From Cyclobacteriaceae bacterium (lineage in GTDB: Bacteria > Bacteroidota > Bacteroidia > Cytophagales > Cyclobacteriaceae): 36,209 nucleotides of DNA. The stretch lies in contig JALSJD010000251.1 in the NCBI GenBank assembly GCA_026989535.1, positions 1-36,209 on the forward strand, given 5' to 3'. Positions 2,558 to 23,340 of the stretch are shown here, piece after piece. Below the pieces are notes generated by a model. It had not been told where the DNA came from and searched no databases. It saw only the letters and a list, made by a program, of their open reading frames with translations. Position 1 is the first letter of the stretch. Each line of letters begins with the position of its first letter. Both the position numbers and the translations under genes were made by a program.

Positions 2558-3232
2558 TTAATTTAGTTTAAAATTGATAGGTAAGGTCATTTGTACTTTT
2601 ACGGGCTTACCTCGTTGTTTGCCAGGACTCCATTTTGGTAAAGTTTTAAGTACACGTATAGCTTCCTCATCACATCCTGCTCCAATGCCTCTTAAGAGTT
2701 TAATGTTGGTAATGCTGCCATCCTTGTCAATTACAAAGGAAAGTGTCACTCTGCCATCTATGCCCATTCTACGTGCTTGCGAAGGGTATTTCATCTTTTT
2801 GCTTATAAACTTATACAGTGCTTCCAAGCCACCCGGATAGGTTGGCATCTGCTCTACAATAATAAAAGGAGCTTCTTCTACCGGCTCAATACCTGGGCTT
2901 TCAATTTCACCTGGGTCTTCAAAACTATCGATTTCTTCAAAAGTATTATCAATGGGAGATTCGAATACTTCAACAACTATATCATTGGGTACTTCAACCA
3001 ATATAACCTCCTTAGGAGGTGGGGGAGGTGGTGTTTGATGTTCCGTTAATGGAACATCAAAAGACTCCTCTGTGTCGAACCCTGTATCCGGGACGACAAA
3101 CCGTTCGCAAATGCTATACGTTTTGTACTCAAATGCCAAGAGCACAAAACTTAAACTAATTACCAAGCCCAAGTTTAAGAATAAACCTGATTTTTTACGT
3201 AAATCGAGTGTCGGATTTTTCTTGTTTTCCAT
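2558..3232 (-). CDS. tonB: Energy transducer TonB (copy 1)
   Basis: TonB-family protein of 224 residues that would couple the proton motive force (via ExbB/ExbD, not in the window) to outer-membrane TonB-dependent transporters. Order: a short cytoplasmic N-terminus (MENKKNPTLDLRKKSG), a single membrane anchor at about 17-36, a proline run PPPPPP near residue 68, an acidic periplasmic linker, then the TonB C-terminal domain at about 130-224 with MPTYPGG, YPSQARRMGIDGRV and GAGCDEEAIRVLKTLPKW. It differs most from the other two copies in the linker and has an unusual cysteine just after the anchor (SICERF). It is probably the last gene of an operon with tonB-2 and the lipoprotein; a 21-bp gap separates it from the latter. 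Confidence 0.92.
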   Translation of the reverse strand: MENKKNPTLDLRKKSGLFLNLGLVISLSFVLLAFEYKTYSICERFVVPDTGFDTEESFDVPLTEHQTPPPPPPKEVILVEVPNDIVVEVFESPIDNTFEEIDSFEDPGEIESPGIEPVEEAPFIIVEQMPTYPGGLEALYKFISKKMKYPSQARRMGIDGRVTLSFVIDKDGSITNIKLLRGIGAGCDEEAIRVLKTLPKWSPGKQRGKPVKVQMTLPINFKLN

Positions 3233-3253
3233 CGTGTTTCTTGTTTTATTATA

Positions 3254-3742
3254 TTAATAATTCACATACCTGGTTTTTCCGCATTGAGCGTATTTATCAT
3301 CTCTGTTTAACTCAATCTTAATGTTTTTACTAAAGTTTTGAAGAACTGTTTCAAACTCCAATCTTTTAGCGTTCGAGATTGATGGGTTTATAATTCTAAA
3401 AAAATAATAATCGATAGAACCACTTTTGCTAAAATAAATTTTGTTAACAATGCTAATAGTTGAATCGGGTGAATCCCACGTAAAATTTTCATCTTTCATA
3501 AACTTCGATACCTGTTGATGAAATTTGCTCCACGATTCTATTACTTTTTTATGCTGTTCTTGCGTTGAGTTTCTGGAGTCTAATAGGTTTGGGTAAATAC
3601 TATCTAAATTCAGCTTTTTATACGCATCAAAGCTTGGCTGATTATCAAAGCTTATAATTGTGGGGTTTTTGTCAGTATCAGATATATTTTTAGCACAACC
3701 TATTAGTATAATAATTAGGAGAAAAATAGAAACTTGCTTCAT
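3254..3742 (-). CDS. Hypothetical lipoprotein between tonB-2 and tonB-1
   Basis: Product of 162 residues with a lipoprotein signal, MKQVSIFLLIIILIGCAKN; the lipobox is LIGC with Cys16, so it is probably anchored in the inner or outer membrane facing the periplasm. The rest is polar with no recognised domain. It ends with RDDKYAQCGKTRYVNY, a Cys-Gly-containing tail that looks like a conserved motif although I cannot name the family. Gaps of 15 bp to tonB-2 upstream and 21 bp to tonB-1 downstream indicate co-transcription. The context suggests a TonB-associated or envelope role, but this is inference only. Confidence 0.8.
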   Translation of the reverse strand: MKQVSIFLLIIILIGCAKNISDTDKNPTIISFDNQPSFDAYKKLNLDSIYPNLLDSRNSTQEQHKKVIESWSKFHQQVSKFMKDENFTWDSPDSTISIVNKIYFSKSGSIDYYFFRIINPSISNAKRLEFETVLQNFSKNIKIELNRDDKYAQCGKTRYVNY

Positions 3743-3757
3743 AGTAATTTTATTTGT

Positions 3758-4432
3758 TTAACTCAATCTAAAAGTTATTGGCAATACCATTCTTACTTTT
3801 ACGGCCTTACCACGTTGTTTACCGGGGTTCCATTTAGGCGAATTTTTAATCACGCGAATGGCTTCTTCATCGCAACCGGCACCTACGCCACGAATTACTT
3901 TTACATCGGTAATATTGCCTGCTTTATCCACCACAAACTGCACAAATACCTTTCCTTCAACGCCCATCTGCCTAGCTCGCGATGGATATTTCATTTTATT
4001 ACCTATGTACTTATAAAAAGCTTGATCGCCCCCCGGAAACGAAGGTTGCTTCTCTACAATGGTAAAAATTTCGTCAGCCACTTCTTCGTCTTCAGGCTCT
4101 TCAAAAATGGCTTCTTCAATTACAGTTTCATCCGTAATATCAATGTCAAGATCCACTTCTATATCTTCTTCAATTTCTTCTTCATCGGGTACCTCAATAA
4201 TTTCGGGCTGCTGTATTTTTGGCGGAGGAGGAGGCGGTTGCTCTATAGGAAGAATCTCTGTCATTTCCTCAAAATCGTCATTTACAGCGGCTAACTGCAT
4301 TAGTGAGCCGTCATCGTACGATTTGTACTCAAATGCGAATAATACCAACGACAGGCTAACTACTAAACCAATGTTTAAATATAAACCTGATTTTTTACGT
4401 AAATCGAGTGTAGGGTTTTTCTTGTTTTCCAT
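3758..4432 (-). CDS. tonB: Energy transducer TonB (copy 2, mosaic)
   Basis: TonB protein of 224 residues with the same plan as its neighbours: N-terminal anchor (about 17-36), PPPPPP run, acidic linker, and C-terminal TonB domain with QPSFPGGDQAFYKYI, YPSRARQMGVEGKV and GAGCDEEAIRVIKNSPKW. The first ~16 residues and the surrounding DNA nearly match tonB-1 (MENKKNPTLDLRKKSG). From FEYKSYDDGSL to the end of the acidic linker it is almost identical to tonB-3, and the DNA there is nearly invariant too. The gene is therefore a mosaic of its two flanking paralogues. It appears to head an operon with the lipoprotein and tonB-1; a terminator lies upstream, between it and tonB-3. Confidence 0.92.
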   Translation of the reverse strand: MENKKNPTLDLRKKSGLYLNIGLVVSLSLVLFAFEYKSYDDGSLMQLAAVNDDFEEMTEILPIEQPPPPPPKIQQPEIIEVPDEEEIEEDIEVDLDIDITDETVIEEAIFEEPEDEEVADEIFTIVEKQPSFPGGDQAFYKYIGNKMKYPSRARQMGVEGKVFVQFVVDKAGNITDVKVIRGVGAGCDEEAIRVIKNSPKWNPGKQRGKAVKVRMVLPITFRLS

Positions 4433-4491
4433 AGTATAACTATTTATTTAATTATAAAACTAAAGTAATAGTTATAGAAAACAAAATAAAA

Positions 4492-4510
4492 CCCCGATTT
4501 ATTTTCGGGG
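4492..4510 (-). terminator. Rho-independent terminator after tonB-3
   Basis: CCCCGA (4492-4497) and TCGGGG (4505-4510) form a GC-rich 6-bp stem with a 7-nt loop. On the minus strand the hairpin is followed by TTTTATTTTG. It lies 14 bp beyond the tonB-3 stop and separates the gcvH-vanZ-tonB-3 unit from the tonB-2 unit. Confidence 0.8.
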
Positions 4511-4524
4511 CTTTAAAATACTTT

Positions 4525-5199
4525 TTAGCTAAGCTTAAAGGTAATTGGTAGTACCATTCGTACTTTAACTGCCTTACCGCGTTGCTTACCGGGAGTCCAT
4601 TTTGGCGAGCTCTTAATTACTCTAGCTGCTTCTTCATCACAACCGGCACCAACACCACGTATAACTTTTACATCGGTAATATTACCTGCTTTATCCACCA
4701 CAAACTGCACAAATACCTTTCCTTCAATGCCCATTCTGCGTGCTTGCGAAGGATACTTCATTTTCTTTTGTACATACTTATAAAAAGCACCCATACCCCC
4801 TGGATAGCCAGGTTGTTTCTCCACAATGGTAAAAATTTCATCGGCCACTTCTTCGTCTTCAGGCTCCTCAAAAATGGCTTCTTCAATTACAGTTTCATCC
4901 GTAATATCAATGTCAAGATCCACTTCTATATCTTCTTCAATTTCTTCTTCATCAGGCACCTCAATAATTTCGGGCTGTTGAATTTTTGGAGGAGGAGGAG
5001 GCGGTTGCTCGGTAGGAGGAATCTCTGTCATTTCCTCAAAATCGTCATTTACAGCGCCTAGCTCCATTAGTGAACCATCATCGTACGATTTGTACTCAAA
5101 TGCAAAAAGCACTAACGCAAGGCTAATAACCAAACCAATATTTAGAAATAGCCCCGACTTTTTAGTCAAATCTGCTTCTGGTGATTTTTTAGCTTCCAT
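4525..5199 (-). CDS. tonB: Energy transducer TonB (copy 3)
   Basis: Third TonB paralogue, 224 residues. It has a cytoplasmic start MEAKKSPEADLTKKSG, a membrane anchor at about 17-36, a PPPPPP run near residue 67, then a strongly acidic linker of about 45 residues rich in Glu and Asp (for example PDEEEIEEDIEVDLDIDI), and a C-terminal TonB domain with QPGYPGGMGAFYKYV and GAGCDEEAARVIKSSPKW. TonB linkers are classically Pro/Lys-rich, so this acidic linker is notable, though acidic variants do occur in Bacteroidota. It follows the vanZ-like gene, has its own -7 element and ends at a strong terminator. Confidence 0.92.
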   Translation of the reverse strand: MEAKKSPEADLTKKSGLFLNIGLVISLALVLFAFEYKSYDDGSLMELGAVNDDFEEMTEIPPTEQPPPPPPKIQQPEIIEVPDEEEIEEDIEVDLDIDITDETVIEEAIFEEPEDEEVADEIFTIVEKQPGYPGGMGAFYKYVQKKMKYPSQARRMGIEGKVFVQFVVDKAGNITDVKVIRGVGAGCDEEAARVIKSSPKWTPGKQRGKAVKVRMVLPITFKLS

Positions 5200-8217: not shown

Positions 8218-9684
8218 ATGCAAAAACTAACCTTATCACAATCATTAGGTCAAAAGCTGAGTCCGCAGCAGATTCAGTTTATTAAACTCTTGCAGGTGCC
8301 TACCGCTGAGTTAGAGTCGCGCATTGAAGAAGAGTTAGAAGTAAACCCCGCCTTGGAAGAAGGGGAGGAAGATGAAACCCCATTGCAATCTCAAGAAGAG
8401 TCCGTTGCTGAAACTGAAGAAAAAAAGGAGGAGGAAGTAAAATCGGAAGATGAGATAAATGTAGAAGATTACCTCCGAGACGATGATTTTAGCGGCTATA
8501 AAATGCAGGGCGATGGAGAAGATTTTGAAGATAAAGAAATGCCCATTTCTACTTCAGCTACCTTAAACGAACAATTATTATCCCAACTTGGGTATTTACG
8601 TTTAGACGAGCGTCAGGTTAAAATTGGCGAGCAATTAATTGGCAGCATCGAAAGTGATGGTTACATCCGTAGGGATATAGAAGCTATAATTAATGATTTG
8701 ATGTTTGCCCAAAATATTGAAACGGATGAGGATGAAATTGAGGACATCTTATTTAAAATACAAGAATTTGACCCTGCCGGTATTGGAGCTCGAAACCTGC
8801 AAGAGTGCTTACTAATTCAATTAGAACGGCTACACGAGCAAAACCCAAACACACGGTTGGCTTATGATATTATCGACCGTTGTTTTGATGAGTTTACCAA
8901 AAAGCATTATGCCAAAATTATAAAAAAACTAAACCTCGAAGATGAAGAGGATATAAAACCAGCTATTGAAATAATAACGAAGTTAAACCCTAAACCTGGC
9001 GGAATTTCTACGGGAGGATTGGTTAAAACACAATACATTATTCCTGATTTTATTTTAACCAATAATGAAGGAGACCTTGAAATTGCCCTCAACTCAAGAA
9101 ATGCACCGGAACTCAAGGTGAGTTCTTCTTATTCTGATATGTTTGAGGCTTATGCCAAAAGCGATAAAAAGGATAAAAAGCTCAAAGAAACAGTTTCGTT
9201 TGTAAAGCAAAAACTGGATTCGGCCAAATGGTTTATCGATGCCATTCGCCAGCGGCAGCAAACCCTGCTTAAAACAATGCGTACCATTGTAAACTACCAG
9301 TATGAGTATTTTTTAACAGGTGATGAGAGTAAGCTAAGGCCAATGATTTTAAAAGACATTGCCGAAAAAATTGATATGGATATTTCTACCGTTAGCCGTG
9401 TGGCCAATAGTAAATCTATTCAAACCGAGTTTGGCACTTTTATGCTTAAATATTTCTTTTCCGAAGGCATTGCAACCGACTCTGGTGAAGATGTAAGTAG
9501 CCGAGAAGTAAAAAATGAGCTTAAAAAGCTGATTGATGCCGAAGATAAATCTAAACCGCTATCGGATGATAAATTAGAGAGCCTGCTTCGTGAAAAAGGC
9601 TATACCATTGCCCGCAGAACGGTGGCTAAATACCGCGAACAACTTGGGTTGCCAGTTGCTCGTTTACGAAAAGAATTGCTGTGA
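8218..9684 (+). CDS. rpoN: RNA polymerase sigma-54 factor
   Basis: Sigma-54, which directs polymerase to -24/-12 promoters and depends on AAA+ activators. The 488-residue protein shows region I at the N-terminus (LTLSQSLGQKLSPQQIQFIKLLQVP in two overlapping Gln-rich blocks), an acidic region II at about 48-105, the core-binding domain at about 110-300, a helix-turn-helix with DISTVSRVANSK near residue 392, and the RpoN box ARRTVAKYREQ near residue 463. Length is normal. It has its own promoter and overlaps the next gene by 4 bp (GTGA), implying translational coupling. No sigma-54 activator gene is in the window. Confidence 0.98.
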   Translation: MQKLTLSQSLGQKLSPQQIQFIKLLQVPTAELESRIEEELEVNPALEEGEEDETPLQSQEESVAETEEKKEEEVKSEDEINVEDYLRDDDFSGYKMQGDGEDFEDKEMPISTSATLNEQLLSQLGYLRLDERQVKIGEQLIGSIESDGYIRRDIEAIINDLMFAQNIETDEDEIEDILFKIQEFDPAGIGARNLQECLLIQLERLHEQNPNTRLAYDIIDRCFDEFTKKHYAKIIKKLNLEDEEDIKPAIEIITKLNPKPGGISTGGLVKTQYIIPDFILTNNEGDLEIALNSRNAPELKVSSSYSDMFEAYAKSDKKDKKLKETVSFVKQKLDSAKWFIDAIRQRQQTLLKTMRTIVNYQYEYFLTGDESKLRPMILKDIAEKIDMDISTVSRVANSKSIQTEFGTFMLKYFFSEGIATDSGEDVSSREVKNELKKLIDAEDKSKPLSDDKLESLLREKGYTIARRTVAKYREQLGLPVARLRKELL

Positions 9685-10307
9685 CCAAGCAGTTGGCTAC
9701 CCTTTTTTCGTACCTGTTTCATCCGCTCCTGATGAGCACCTATTTGTTTTCTATTTTGCTTTTTATGGCTCCCCATAGCATAATGCCCATTGGGTTTAGT
9801 GCCACTAGTGGTGTTGTGTTGGTCGGCTTAATTTTTATTACAACCTGCATTATTCCCGTTCTAAGCCTCTATATTTTAAAACTATCAGGCAGTATTTCTT
9901 CATTTTCGTTAGATGACAAAGGCGAACGAATTACCCCTATGATTTACACAGGGGTAATGTATGGAATTACAGCCTATATGTTTGCCAACAAATTAGAATT
10001 AGGGGAAATGATAGCCGTGTATTTAGGCATATCTACGCTCCTTATTTTACTTGCAGGCATTATTACTTTTTTTTGGAAAATAAGTCTGCATGGTATTGGG
10101 GTAGGTGGGTTTATTGGTTTTTTGCTAGGGCTTAATATGCAATCAAGTCTGGCGTATTTTAATTTTATACTGCCTCCTTTGTTTATAATTGCTGCATTGG
10201 TTTTGAGTGCACGCTTAAAGTTGAATGCACATACGCCTCAACAAGTATATGTAGGATTTGTATTGGGTATTTGTAGTAGTTTTGTTTCTTTAATGATTTA
10301 TACCTAA
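9681..10307 (+). CDS. PAP2-like integral membrane protein
   Basis: Product of 208 residues with about six membrane helices. The GTG start overlaps the rpoN stop by 4 bp. Traces of the PAP2 phosphatase signature remain: DDKGERITPM (the K..RP block), WKISLHGIGVGG (the SGH block, with Ser-x-His) and SARLKLNAHTPQQVYVG (the R-x5-H block). The aspartate expected four residues after that His is Gln here, so classical phosphatase activity is uncertain. The last two codons, ACC TAA, belong to the left terminal repeat of the adjacent MITE-like element, so the natural C-terminus may have been altered. Role unknown; a lipid-phosphate function is one possibility. Confidence 0.72.
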   Translation: MTKQLATLFSYLFHPLLMSTYLFSILLFMAPHSIMPIGFSATSGVVLVGLIFITTCIIPVLSLYILKLSGSISSFSLDDKGERITPMIYTGVMYGITAYMFANKLELGEMIAVYLGISTLLILLAGIITFFWKISLHGIGVGGFIGFLLGLNMQSSLAYFNFILPPLFIIAALVLSARLKLNAHTPQQVYVGFVLGICSSFVSLMIYT

Positions 10308-10468
10308 ATTGAGCGATTCACTAAAGCGATAAGCACTAATGTACTGAGTTAAAAAGACTTCCAAAAATACTCGCAATCCGCCAACTGGCGGATTCCTGCG
10401 TTTTTTGTAAACTTTTAATTCTCAGTCTTTTAGCACTTCTCATCTCTACTGAATCACTCAATCTAGGT
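10302..10468. mobile_element. MITE-like element, copy 1 (167 bp)
   Basis: The left end ACCTAAATTGAGCGATTCA (10302-10320) pairs with TGAATCACTCAATCTAGGT (10450-10468), 19 bp with two mismatches. The inverted similarity continues imperfectly for about 50 bp inward. The centre is a hairpin, AATCCGCCA (10375-10383) and TGGCGGATT (10386-10394), extended by CGCA/TGCG. There is no coding frame. The right 51 bp (10418-10468) match the left arm of copy 2 at 47 of 51 positions in inverted orientation. This fits a nonautonomous element moved in trans; no transposase is in the window. Confidence 0.75.
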
Positions 10469-10485
10469 TATATCCTGTAAAAAAT

Positions 10486-11265
10486 ATGTACGAATTTATA
10501 AAATACGATACCGCTGATGGGGTAACTACCATCACTTTAAATAGGCCAGATGTGTATAATGCCTTAAATGATGAAATTACTTATGAGCTGCAAGATGCTT
10601 TTAAAAAAGCCACCAAGGATGAAACCACACGAGTGGTGGTTTTTACAGGCGAAGGCAAGGCATTTTGTTCGGGTCAAGATTTAAAAGCAGCCGTTGGCGA
10701 CCAAAAACGATCTTTTTCTGCATCGCTCGAAAAACGGTATAATCCATTGATTAGCTTAATGCGAAATATGCCTAAACCTATTATTTGTAAAATAAATGGA
10801 GTAGCCGCAGGCGCTGGATGCTCGTTGGCATTAGCCAGCGATATTTTAGTAATAGCCGAAGAAACCTTTTTGGTGGAGGTATTTGTAAATATAGGCCTGG
10901 TAATGGATTCTGGCTCTTCTTATTTTTTACCTCGATTGGTGGGTTCTTCAAAAGCCTTTGAGTTGGCCACAATGGGTAGCCGCATATATGGCAAAGAGGC
11001 CGTTGAATTAGGTATTGCCAATAAGTCGGTGCCAGTTGCTGAGCTTGATAAAGCCGTTGCTGTTTATACTGATTATTATAAAAATGCCCCAACCAAAGCC
11101 ATTGGGCTTATGAAAAAGATGCTCAACAAATCGGGTAATAGCGATTTAAAAGCAATGCTCGAATATGAAAAACAGTGCCAAGAAATAGCAGGCGCTACCC
11201 ACGATTATAAAGAAGGTGTTGGTGCATTTTTAGAAAAACGCAAGGCTGAGTTTACGGGTAAGTAG
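10486..11265 (+). CDS. paaG: Enoyl-CoA hydratase/isomerase, PaaG-like
   Basis: Crotonase-fold enzyme of 259 residues. Oxyanion-hole blocks are visible: GKAFCSGQDLKA (about residues 60-71) and KINGVAAGAGCSLALASDI (about 102-120). FVNIGLVMDSGSSYFLPRLVG (about 132-152) carries the aspartate typical of PaaG, the isomerase that converts the phenylacetyl-CoA epoxide to its oxepin, rather than the Glu-rich site of a standard hydratase. The C-terminal GAFLEKRKAEFTGK is typical of the family. No other paa gene is in the window, so it may act in another acyl-CoA pathway. A MITE-like element ends 17 bp before the ATG. Confidence 0.85.
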   Translation: MYEFIKYDTADGVTTITLNRPDVYNALNDEITYELQDAFKKATKDETTRVVVFTGEGKAFCSGQDLKAAVGDQKRSFSASLEKRYNPLISLMRNMPKPIICKINGVAAGAGCSLALASDILVIAEETFLVEVFVNIGLVMDSGSSYFLPRLVGSSKAFELATMGSRIYGKEAVELGIANKSVPVAELDKAVAVYTDYYKNAPTKAIGLMKKMLNKSGNSDLKAMLEYEKQCQEIAGATHDYKEGVGAFLEKRKAEFTGK

Positions 11266-21070: not shown

Positions 21071-21635
21071 AGCTTTTCGGCTTTTGGGCGAATTATATAT
21101 TGGCAGCACCCTTAGTGCTGGGTTAACACATAATAATTTTGGGCTGGATTAATAGCTTTACTACATCTGTTAAGCAATATTTGAGTTTTTTGGTTTTGGG
21201 TGTTTTCTGAGTGGATTCCTTTTTAGTAATTTTAAAGTAATGTTTGCAAGTTATAATGGGCTAATCCTCTTGTTTGCCAAGAGATGATATATCTATGATG
21301 AGTTTCTCCTTTCTTGCAATAAGATTCTAATTATGCGCAGATTCTCTCTACCCCCCTTATACATAAAAATGCAACAGCCTTGTTTAGAGGTTATTACATT
21401 TTGTGTGCAGCCACCTTCAAGTTTGATCAAGGCGGCAAACTGTATTTTTACTAAAAGAAAGAAGGCTCTGCTTTCTTGGGGACTGAACTATTCATAACGC
21501 AACTTAGCTGCAAACAAAAGTAAGGATTTTCGATATTTGTCTTAACAAGTTTAATCAGAACACTCACGCTTTCTGAGAGTACCTCTTAAATCTACAAAAT
21601 TATAGAGAAAAATAGCTTATATTTATTTTAATAAT
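21071..21635. other. Long noncoding stretch
   Basis: No credible open frame or RNA gene is seen. A small hairpin CAGCAC (21104-21109) / GTGCTG (21115-21120) with a 5-nt loop follows the terminator, and AAGAAAG...CTTTCTT occurs near 21457-21476. The stretch ends at the MITE-like copy 2. It may be decayed sequence or hold an unrecognised small RNA. Confidence 0.35.
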
Positions 21636-21753
21636 ACCTAAATTGAGCGATTGAGTAGAGATGAGAAGTGCTAAGAGACTGAGAATAATCCCGAGTACTC
21701 GGGAACAAAAAACACAGAAACACCTACGCTGTAATGAATCGCTCAATTTAGGT
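21636..21753. mobile_element. MITE-like element, copy 2 (118 bp)
   Basis: The ends are perfect inverted repeats: TAATACCTAAATTGAGCGATT occupies 21632-21652 and its exact complement 21737-21757 (21 bp including flanking TAAT/ATTA). The left 51 bp match the right arm of copy 1 (10418-10468) in inverted orientation at 47 of 51 positions. The centre differs from copy 1: it holds the perfect palindrome TCCCGAGTACTCGGGA (21689-21704). There is no coding capacity. It ends about 27 bp before the next start codon. Confidence 0.75.
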
Positions 21754-21780
21754 ATTACTAATCTTCAAATTTAGATAAGC

Positions 21781-23340
21781 ATGCGACAATTTTTTATCAC
21801 TGCTTTTTTTACCGTTACAACACAACTCCTCTACGGTCAAAACGACTCCACTCAATTAGTAAGATTTGATGAGTTAACATTTAATTCAGCTAGCGAAAAA
21901 CAATATTATGAAGAACTTTATAATGATAAGCCCGCATACTTCGAACTTTTAGCAAGTATTGATTCAACTACAACAAACAAGGATATATCGGCCTACTCGC
22001 AAAGGCTTTACTTTGCGTTAGATGAGTTTAATAACACCAAATGGCAGAACAAGAAACCAGAAAAAAAAATTAAAACCATTTACGAGAAAATTCACACAAT
22101 ATTTTTTGATCAATATAGCTTAGAAAACAATTTTTCAGATGTATTTACCAGTGGCAAATACAATTGTGTATCTGCCACTGGAGTATATGCTCTTGCATTA
22201 GATAAATTAAATATTCCTTATGTAATCAAAGAAGAACCTACGCATGTATATCTAATTGCCTATCCAAATTCAGAAAGAATAATTGTGGAAGCCACAAACC
22301 CTGCTGCTGGTTATACCCAGTTTAACGAGGCGTTCAAAAAAGACTTTGTTAATAGGCTAACAAAAGCAAAGATTATTGGCTCACTTGAAGCACAACAATC
22401 TAATATTAATCAATTATTTGACAAATATTATTTTACAAAAAACAATATCCAATTAAAAGAATTAGTGGCACTACAATACTATAATGATGGGCTTTATAAA
22501 ATGGAAGGAGAACAATACGAGCTTGCCTTTACCCAGCTAGAAAAATCTTATTTATTATATGAGAACGAAAGAATAGGCTACTTACTTTATATGAACGGAG
22601 CCAGCTTTTTAAGAACATTACCAATTGAAGATTTGAGGTATGCCCCTATGGTGCTAAGAATCGCTAGGTTTAAAGATTATGGTGTAAAAAATGAGCAAAT
22701 AATAGCGGAGTACCAACAACTCGCCAATCTATACCTTTTTAAAAATGGGGATGTTGCTAAAAACGATAAACTTTATAATGATTTTAAAAAAGTATCGCCA
22801 GATTCATCCTATCAAAATACCATCTCCTATTTGTATAATTTTGAAGCTGGAAGGTATAATTACACAAAAGGAAAATATGCTCAGGCACTTGAATATTTAG
22901 CTATTGCCTATAATATAAAACCAAATGATGCGCAAGCTCAAAGTATTTTAGTGAGTGCAATTGCCCAACAAGCCTCTCGTTTAAACAACATTGAAAAAAC
23001 ATATGCTTTCTTAGATCAATATGGCGCATCCTATCCAAATCTTATTGAAAACGATAATTTTAAAATTATGTTAGCAAACGTAAAATTAGAGATGGCTTCT
23101 TTCTACTATTACACAAACAAGGCTAAACAAGCTGAGCTATATTTAGCTAAATTTGAAGCATTAAGTATGGATGACATTAAAACATTAAATGAAAATTCAA
23201 TCTCAAAAGCCTATGTATCAGCAGCCATGTACTATTACCGAAAAGGGGCTGTAAGCAGTGCTCAAAAACATGTTGGTAGAGGGTTGCAAATTTTGCCTAA
23301 TGACTTTAATTTAACCCGATTAAAACAAATGATGAGATAG
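21781..23340 (+). CDS. Exported transglutaminase-like / TPR protein
   Basis: Product of 519 residues with an N-terminal signal peptide (MRQFFITAFFTVTTQLLYGQ). Residues about 95-185 resemble a transglutaminase-like cysteine-protease fold: SGKYNCVSATGVYALALDKL with Cys129, then EEPTHVYLIAY with His155, then IIVEATNP where an Asp would complete a triad but Glu/Asn are seen. The remainder (about 230-519) is helical with tetratricopeptide-like units such as YALAYNIKPNDAQAQ-type repeats (LEYLAIAYNIKPNDAQAQS). It may process or bind periplasmic proteins or peptidoglycan; the activity is inferred. It is monocistronic, directly after a MITE-like element and converging with the MORN gene 1 bp downstream. 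Confidence 0.72.
   Translation: MRQFFITAFFTVTTQLLYGQNDSTQLVRFDELTFNSASEKQYYEELYNDKPAYFELLASIDSTTTNKDISAYSQRLYFALDEFNNTKWQNKKPEKKIKTIYEKIHTIFFDQYSLENNFSDVFTSGKYNCVSATGVYALALDKLNIPYVIKEEPTHVYLIAYPNSERIIVEATNPAAGYTQFNEAFKKDFVNRLTKAKIIGSLEAQQSNINQLFDKYYFTKNNIQLKELVALQYYNDGLYKMEGEQYELAFTQLEKSYLLYENERIGYLLYMNGASFLRTLPIEDLRYAPMVLRIARFKDYGVKNEQIIAEYQQLANLYLFKNGDVAKNDKLYNDFKKVSPDSSYQNTISYLYNFEAGRYNYTKGKYAQALEYLAIAYNIKPNDAQAQSILVSAIAQQASRLNNIEKTYAFLDQYGASYPNLIENDNFKIMLANVKLEMASFYYYTNKAKQAELYLAKFEALSMDDIKTLNENSISKAYVSAAMYYYRKGAVSSAQKHVGRGLQILPNDFNLTRLKQMMR

Follow-up and report, generated by a model that had tools for sequence, protein, structure and literature searches.

What moves two short elements that share nearly the same arm, and how did they come to carry different hairpins at their centers? 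The question is raised by a 36,209-nucleotide stretch of a Cyclobacteriaceae genome (the window, contig JALSJD010000251.1), in which a first-pass annotation had noted a common 17-bp end, an inverted 51-bp arm, unlike central palindromes, and a plus-strand gene shortly beyond each element. All of these features are present. The end ACCTAAATTGAGCGATT occurs at 10302 and 21636; the arms, at 10418–10468 and 21636–21686, are identical at 47 of 51 positions (92%), and a repeat search of the window returned the pair as 56 nt at 89% identity. The centers hold AATCCGCCAACTGGCGGATT in element 1 and TCCCGAGTACTCGGGA in element 2, and the downstream ORFs follow after 17 bp (at 10486) and 27 bp (at 21781). 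The two elements themselves were correctly recognized, but their limits were not: these move to 10303–10467 and 21637–21752, which leaves the target words outside. With a probability of about 0.9, we assign both to a family of non-autonomous MITEs in the IS1380 group, a family new in itself but of a kind already known.

Element 1 lies on the plus strand, measures 165 bp including its ends (CCTAAATTGAGCGATT ... AATCACTCAATCTAGG), and is bracketed by a perfect target-site duplication, TTATA, at 10298–10302 and 10468–10472. Its tip hairpin, AATCCGCCAACTGGCGGATT, at 10375–10394, is terminator-like on the plus strand. Element 2 is a 116-bp copy in the opposite orientation, on the minus strand, with TAATA on its left (21632–21636) and TATTA on its right (21753–21757), words that match at four of five positions; its hairpin, TCCCGAGTACTCGGGA, occupies 21689–21704. 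A scan of element 1 for sigma-70-type promoters found none.

These two copies are not alone. The 17-bp end, searched with up to two mismatches, occurs at 88 sites in the genome (3.82 Mb in 252 contigs), against none for the reversed pattern, and the window copies thus belong to a large family. Its members, cut out stretch by stretch, include 25 complete copies of 46–215 bp that encode no transposase, along with many fragments, and the exact ends are 16-bp inverted copies of CCTARATTGAGCGATT. Target duplications, sought around the copies, were found as 5-bp words: 14 of the 24 complete elements with flanks examined have a perfect duplication, which in 13 of the 14 reads TNNNA, while the other ten lack a perfect one and eight of these elements have flanking words that match at four of five positions. 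A reading of 3-bp duplications was dropped in favor of 5-bp TNNNA words, obtained by assigning the outer A/T to the target. The family is dispersed in intergenic DNA (of the 25 complete copies, none has most of its length within an ORF of 100 aa or more), and its interior is a long imperfect palindrome with mutually related halves, whose single-strand DNA folds reach z values of −5.5 to −8.1. Among 396 genomes of the same bacterial family, the strict end pattern was found in this genome only, and in none of the four of the same genus (81–95% complete).

The insertion of element 1 can be read from its neighbors. The upstream gene (9681–10307, plus strand) has had its last two codons and stop replaced, and its TAA stop now comes from the MITE end; the downstream gene (10486–11265, plus strand), enoyl-CoA hydratase-like by sequence, is now separated from it by the MITE. 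In a genome of the same genus (G014), both genes lie four bases apart, without the element. Joining the flanks in silico, with element 1 and one TTATA excised, changes the C-terminus of the upstream product from ...SLMIYT* to ...SLMIYIL*, equal in length to the ...SYIVYVH* of that relative. The empty site and the restored C-terminus show that the insertion is derived. Of the two alternatives that the first-pass annotation had named, an ancestral origin of the sequence does not agree with this locus, and a total of only two copies does not agree with the 88 end sites. For element 2, the orthologous locus in genome G135 has only 50% protein identity and offered no usable site. Because element 1 parts two adjacent genes and places a terminator-like hairpin between them, it may reduce their co-transcription.

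Which enzyme moves the family? The 18-mer ACCTAAATTGAGCGATTC occurs in at least 114 genome stretches from many phyla, including Bacteroidetes, Nitrospirae, Deltaproteobacteria, Acidobacteria, Planctomycetes, Gemmatimonadota, and others, against about seven expected by chance in 257 Gb (our estimate, under a uniform model). Many of these loci are short two-ended elements, and four (L173, L159, L155, L113) are 1.7–1.9 kb long and encode a transposase. All four transposases match the IS1380 model NF033539, L173 with 250 bits against a cut-off of 180 and the other three below it, some as split or partial ORFs; the three that were checked against Pfam all match PF13701. Identical 5-bp words flank L173 (TTCGA) and L159 (TAATA). 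The genome under study has a single match to this IS1380 transposase, at C3:5927–7084, which runs to the contig end and scores 160.8 in NCBIfam, below the curated cut-off of 180, a shortfall that is consistent with a truncated protein but does not prove the assignment. An exact family end lies 231 bp from it, at C3:5680; the IS1380 element is incomplete at the end of contig C3, with one of its two ends seen. Thus, an autonomous transposase with the same ends exists in other phyla, and one such end stands beside the transposase of this genome; together they lend good support to mobilization in trans. The many copies, the duplications, and the empty site likewise accord with the non-autonomous family, moved in trans, that had been proposed. 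Judged from these shared ends, an IS1380-type transposase very probably moves the family, and would recognize the CCTARATTGAGCGATT ends and move the elements in trans as it does its own insertion sequence.

The family resembles IS1380 insertion sequences (NF033539, PF13701; e.g., ISEcp1) in ends that begin with CC, in 5-bp duplications, and in sharing its ends with transposase-coding elements. For instance, the duplication TATGA described for the IS1380 member ISEcp1 (PMC2887853) also flanks family copy L014. It differs from them in lacking a transposase gene and in having a palindromic interior with hairpin modules.

This interior bears on the second part of the question. Alignment of full-length copies defines an element with five hairpin sites, A to E, of which A and E, and likewise B and D, are mirrored, and each site carries a GC-rich hairpin, another short sequence, or nothing. 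Sites A and E, which mirror each other in the two arms, are either empty or occupied by a CCTGCC-type hairpin; B and D have CCCCGATnnnnATCGGGG or TCCCGAGnnCTCGGGA where they carry a hairpin, and an AT-rich stretch otherwise; and C, the tip, has CCGCCAACTGGCGG or ACCTTTCAGGTG. Element 1 has a hairpin at C and none at A, B, D, or E. Element 2 has one at D and none at E, and a deletion has taken away the left arm with sites A, B, and C; its D hairpin is central only because of that loss, and element 2 is an internal-deletion derivative. The earlier proposal that the central hairpins were swapped at one position therefore fails, since AATCCGCCAACTGGCGGATT and TCCCGAGTACTCGGGA hold different sites of the full-length element.

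The idea of a modular interior, on the other hand, stands. Modules reassort among copies, with all four combinations occurring in five of the ten site pairs (AE, BC, BE, CE, and DE). On a tree of the backbone, site E requires five changes for its five positive copies, and copies L005 and L013, identical over the compared backbone columns, differ at E. The tree takes in some site-B columns, which makes the low figure for B (one change) partly circular, and for C it may include part of the tip region. Reassortment is most simply explained by recombination or conversion between copies, although repeated independent gain or loss could also be its source. Under the former, copies would exchange segments through recombination or gene conversion, and deletion would remove others, yielding mosaics like the two elements in the window.

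Several of the hairpins are not confined to the MITE, and this opens a different reading, possible though doubtful, in which the modules are themselves very small palindromes, mobile or copied, that come to rest on the tips and loops of sequences that fold, the IS1380 MITE being one host among others. In pattern searches of the genome, TCCGCCA-N0-6-TGGCGGA was tallied at 22 places, against none for a reversed palindrome of the same composition, and YCCCGA..TCGGGR at 49, against six for its control. Most of these hairpins lie outside the IS1380 MITE, at the tips or centers of other palindromic repeats (at least four families, some of which have alternative hairpins at one site). Of the hairpin types of the MITE, those of sites B, C, and D recur in this way: in other palindromic repeats, on stem tips of RNase P RNA, and within a D-loop that belongs to a partial tRNA copy. 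The RNase P RNA (L302/L003 1774–2206; C11:22709–23141) has three TCCCGA..TCGGGA-type hairpins and a CCGCCCGCTAGCTAGCGGGCGG tip, in place of which a genome of the same genus (G162) has TCCGCCAGATGGCGGA; its tips vary from one genome of the genus to another, with identical words turning up at different helices. A tRNA-Ala(GGC) gene (L272 1407–1540, on C44) is accompanied by a partial copy of its 5′ half, in which TCCCGATAGTTATCGGGA replaces the D-loop. The same palindrome is thus found at unrelated sites, RNA genes included, as in Rickettsia palindromic elements.

Shared hairpins of this kind suggest, at the level of sequence, exchange across the genome. In its broadest form, the proposal would make the 14–20 bp GC-rich palindromes (TCCGCCA..TGGCGGA, YCCCGAN..NTCGGGR, and their kin) interchangeable tip cassettes throughout the genome, a conjecture we offer tentatively; it is likewise speculative that they would replace one another on any folded host, whether MITEs, REP-like palindromes, or RNAs. 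We hold it no more firmly because ordinary terminators are among the matches and because variation of RNase P tips is general to bacteria. Against movement, too, the searches found no unit boundary, duplication, or enzyme; the differences at RNase P tips among relatives look like replacements rather than clean insertions; RAYT genes are flanked by other hairpins; and the E module is almost wholly confined to the MITE.

Further repeats with such tips were observed in the same genome. One palindromic family of about 235 bp (L250, L256, L244, L269, L276, L278) has ends TAACCTGAATAATTCATGAATAATC and alternative central hairpins, TCCGCCA.., TACGCCAGCTGGCGTA, or GTAGCTCGCTAC, with an extra TCCCGA hairpin in L278. 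These tip hairpins also occur in a family with ends TAGTGTCTCTAAGAAAACA (L259, L260, L246) and in one characterized by GAGTGGACTC (L270, L276, and the window at 2544 and 33579, where the ends are of the GAGTGGACTC type). In the window, CGTCATTCCTCCCGAGTACTCGGGAGGAATGACG at 2312–2345 is a perfect CGTC-type palindrome with the tip hairpin of MITE element 2, and positions 2558–5199 hold three tandem paralogous ORFs of 224 aa with TonB-like C-termini, the nearest two at about 82–92% DNA identity. Outside the bacterial family but within the order, genome G397 has 374 matches to CCCGA-N2-9-TCGGG against 18 for the control, far above the genome of the window.

Selection without movement, in which a host factor or RNA stability favors these stems as terminators or protein sites, is an unlikely account of the hairpins. 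It agrees with the terminator-like hairpin of element 1 and with the CCCGA..TCGGG hairpin at 4492–4510 in the window, which has a terminator-like tail; convergence is nevertheless hard to reconcile with a 14-base palindrome found at 22 places against none and shared by MITEs, RNA gene tips, and a partial tRNA copy.

It is very improbable that the family belongs to REP/RAYT systems, in which a Y1 (HUH) transposase moves repeats as single-stranded hairpins: the repeats are palindromic and intergenic, and the genome has 15 Y1_Tnp matches against one to four in same-genus genomes, but Y1 transposition makes no target duplication, and the MITE has terminal inverted repeats and 5-bp duplications and shares its ends with elements that encode an IS1380 transposase. 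The Y1_Tnp (RAYT/IS200-like) matches lie on C11, C68, C138, C209, C37, C29, and other contigs, several with flanking palindromes of their own. A RAYT link for the hairpins was also dropped, as the flanks of the Y1 genes examined in this genome carry other palindromes.

The non-autonomous IS1380 family can be set beside several described systems. Correia/NEMIS and other bacterial MITEs (PMC2229807) are likewise short, multicopy, and intergenic, with inverted ends, and Correia elements occur in two forms, one having an internal 50-bp segment that the other lacks (PMC2229807); the IS1380 MITE differs from Correia/NEMIS in its ends, its transposase group, and its five optional or alternative hairpin sites. 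The wider spread of GC hairpins resembles Rickettsia palindromic elements (RPE) and organelle hairpin elements (PMC2229807, PMC2800124, PMC4478555), the former of which insert into RNA genes, those for RNase P RNA and tmRNA among them (PMC2229807). RPE, however, are 105–146 bp long, whereas the units here are of 14–20 bp and are known from shared sequence. Several GC hairpins tip CGTCATT-flanked palindromes, as in REP/RAYT systems (subclass 2.6 of Bacteroidetes, PMC6006769; CGTC repeats, PMC3733652), but the hairpins here are not beside RAYT genes, and inverted ends and target duplications set the MITE apart. Searches of the open-licence literature turned up no account of IS1380 MITEs whose hairpins are modular, and none that places these hairpins in Bacteroidetes.

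With many copies, a known transposase group, and an empty site, the MITE family is a clean system for following the diversification of palindromic MITEs. If the wider proposal is true, short hairpins would travel from one repeat to another, unrelated one and also reach essential RNA genes; free-living bacteria would then have an equivalent of the organelle hairpin elements, and RNase P RNA a source of variation in length.
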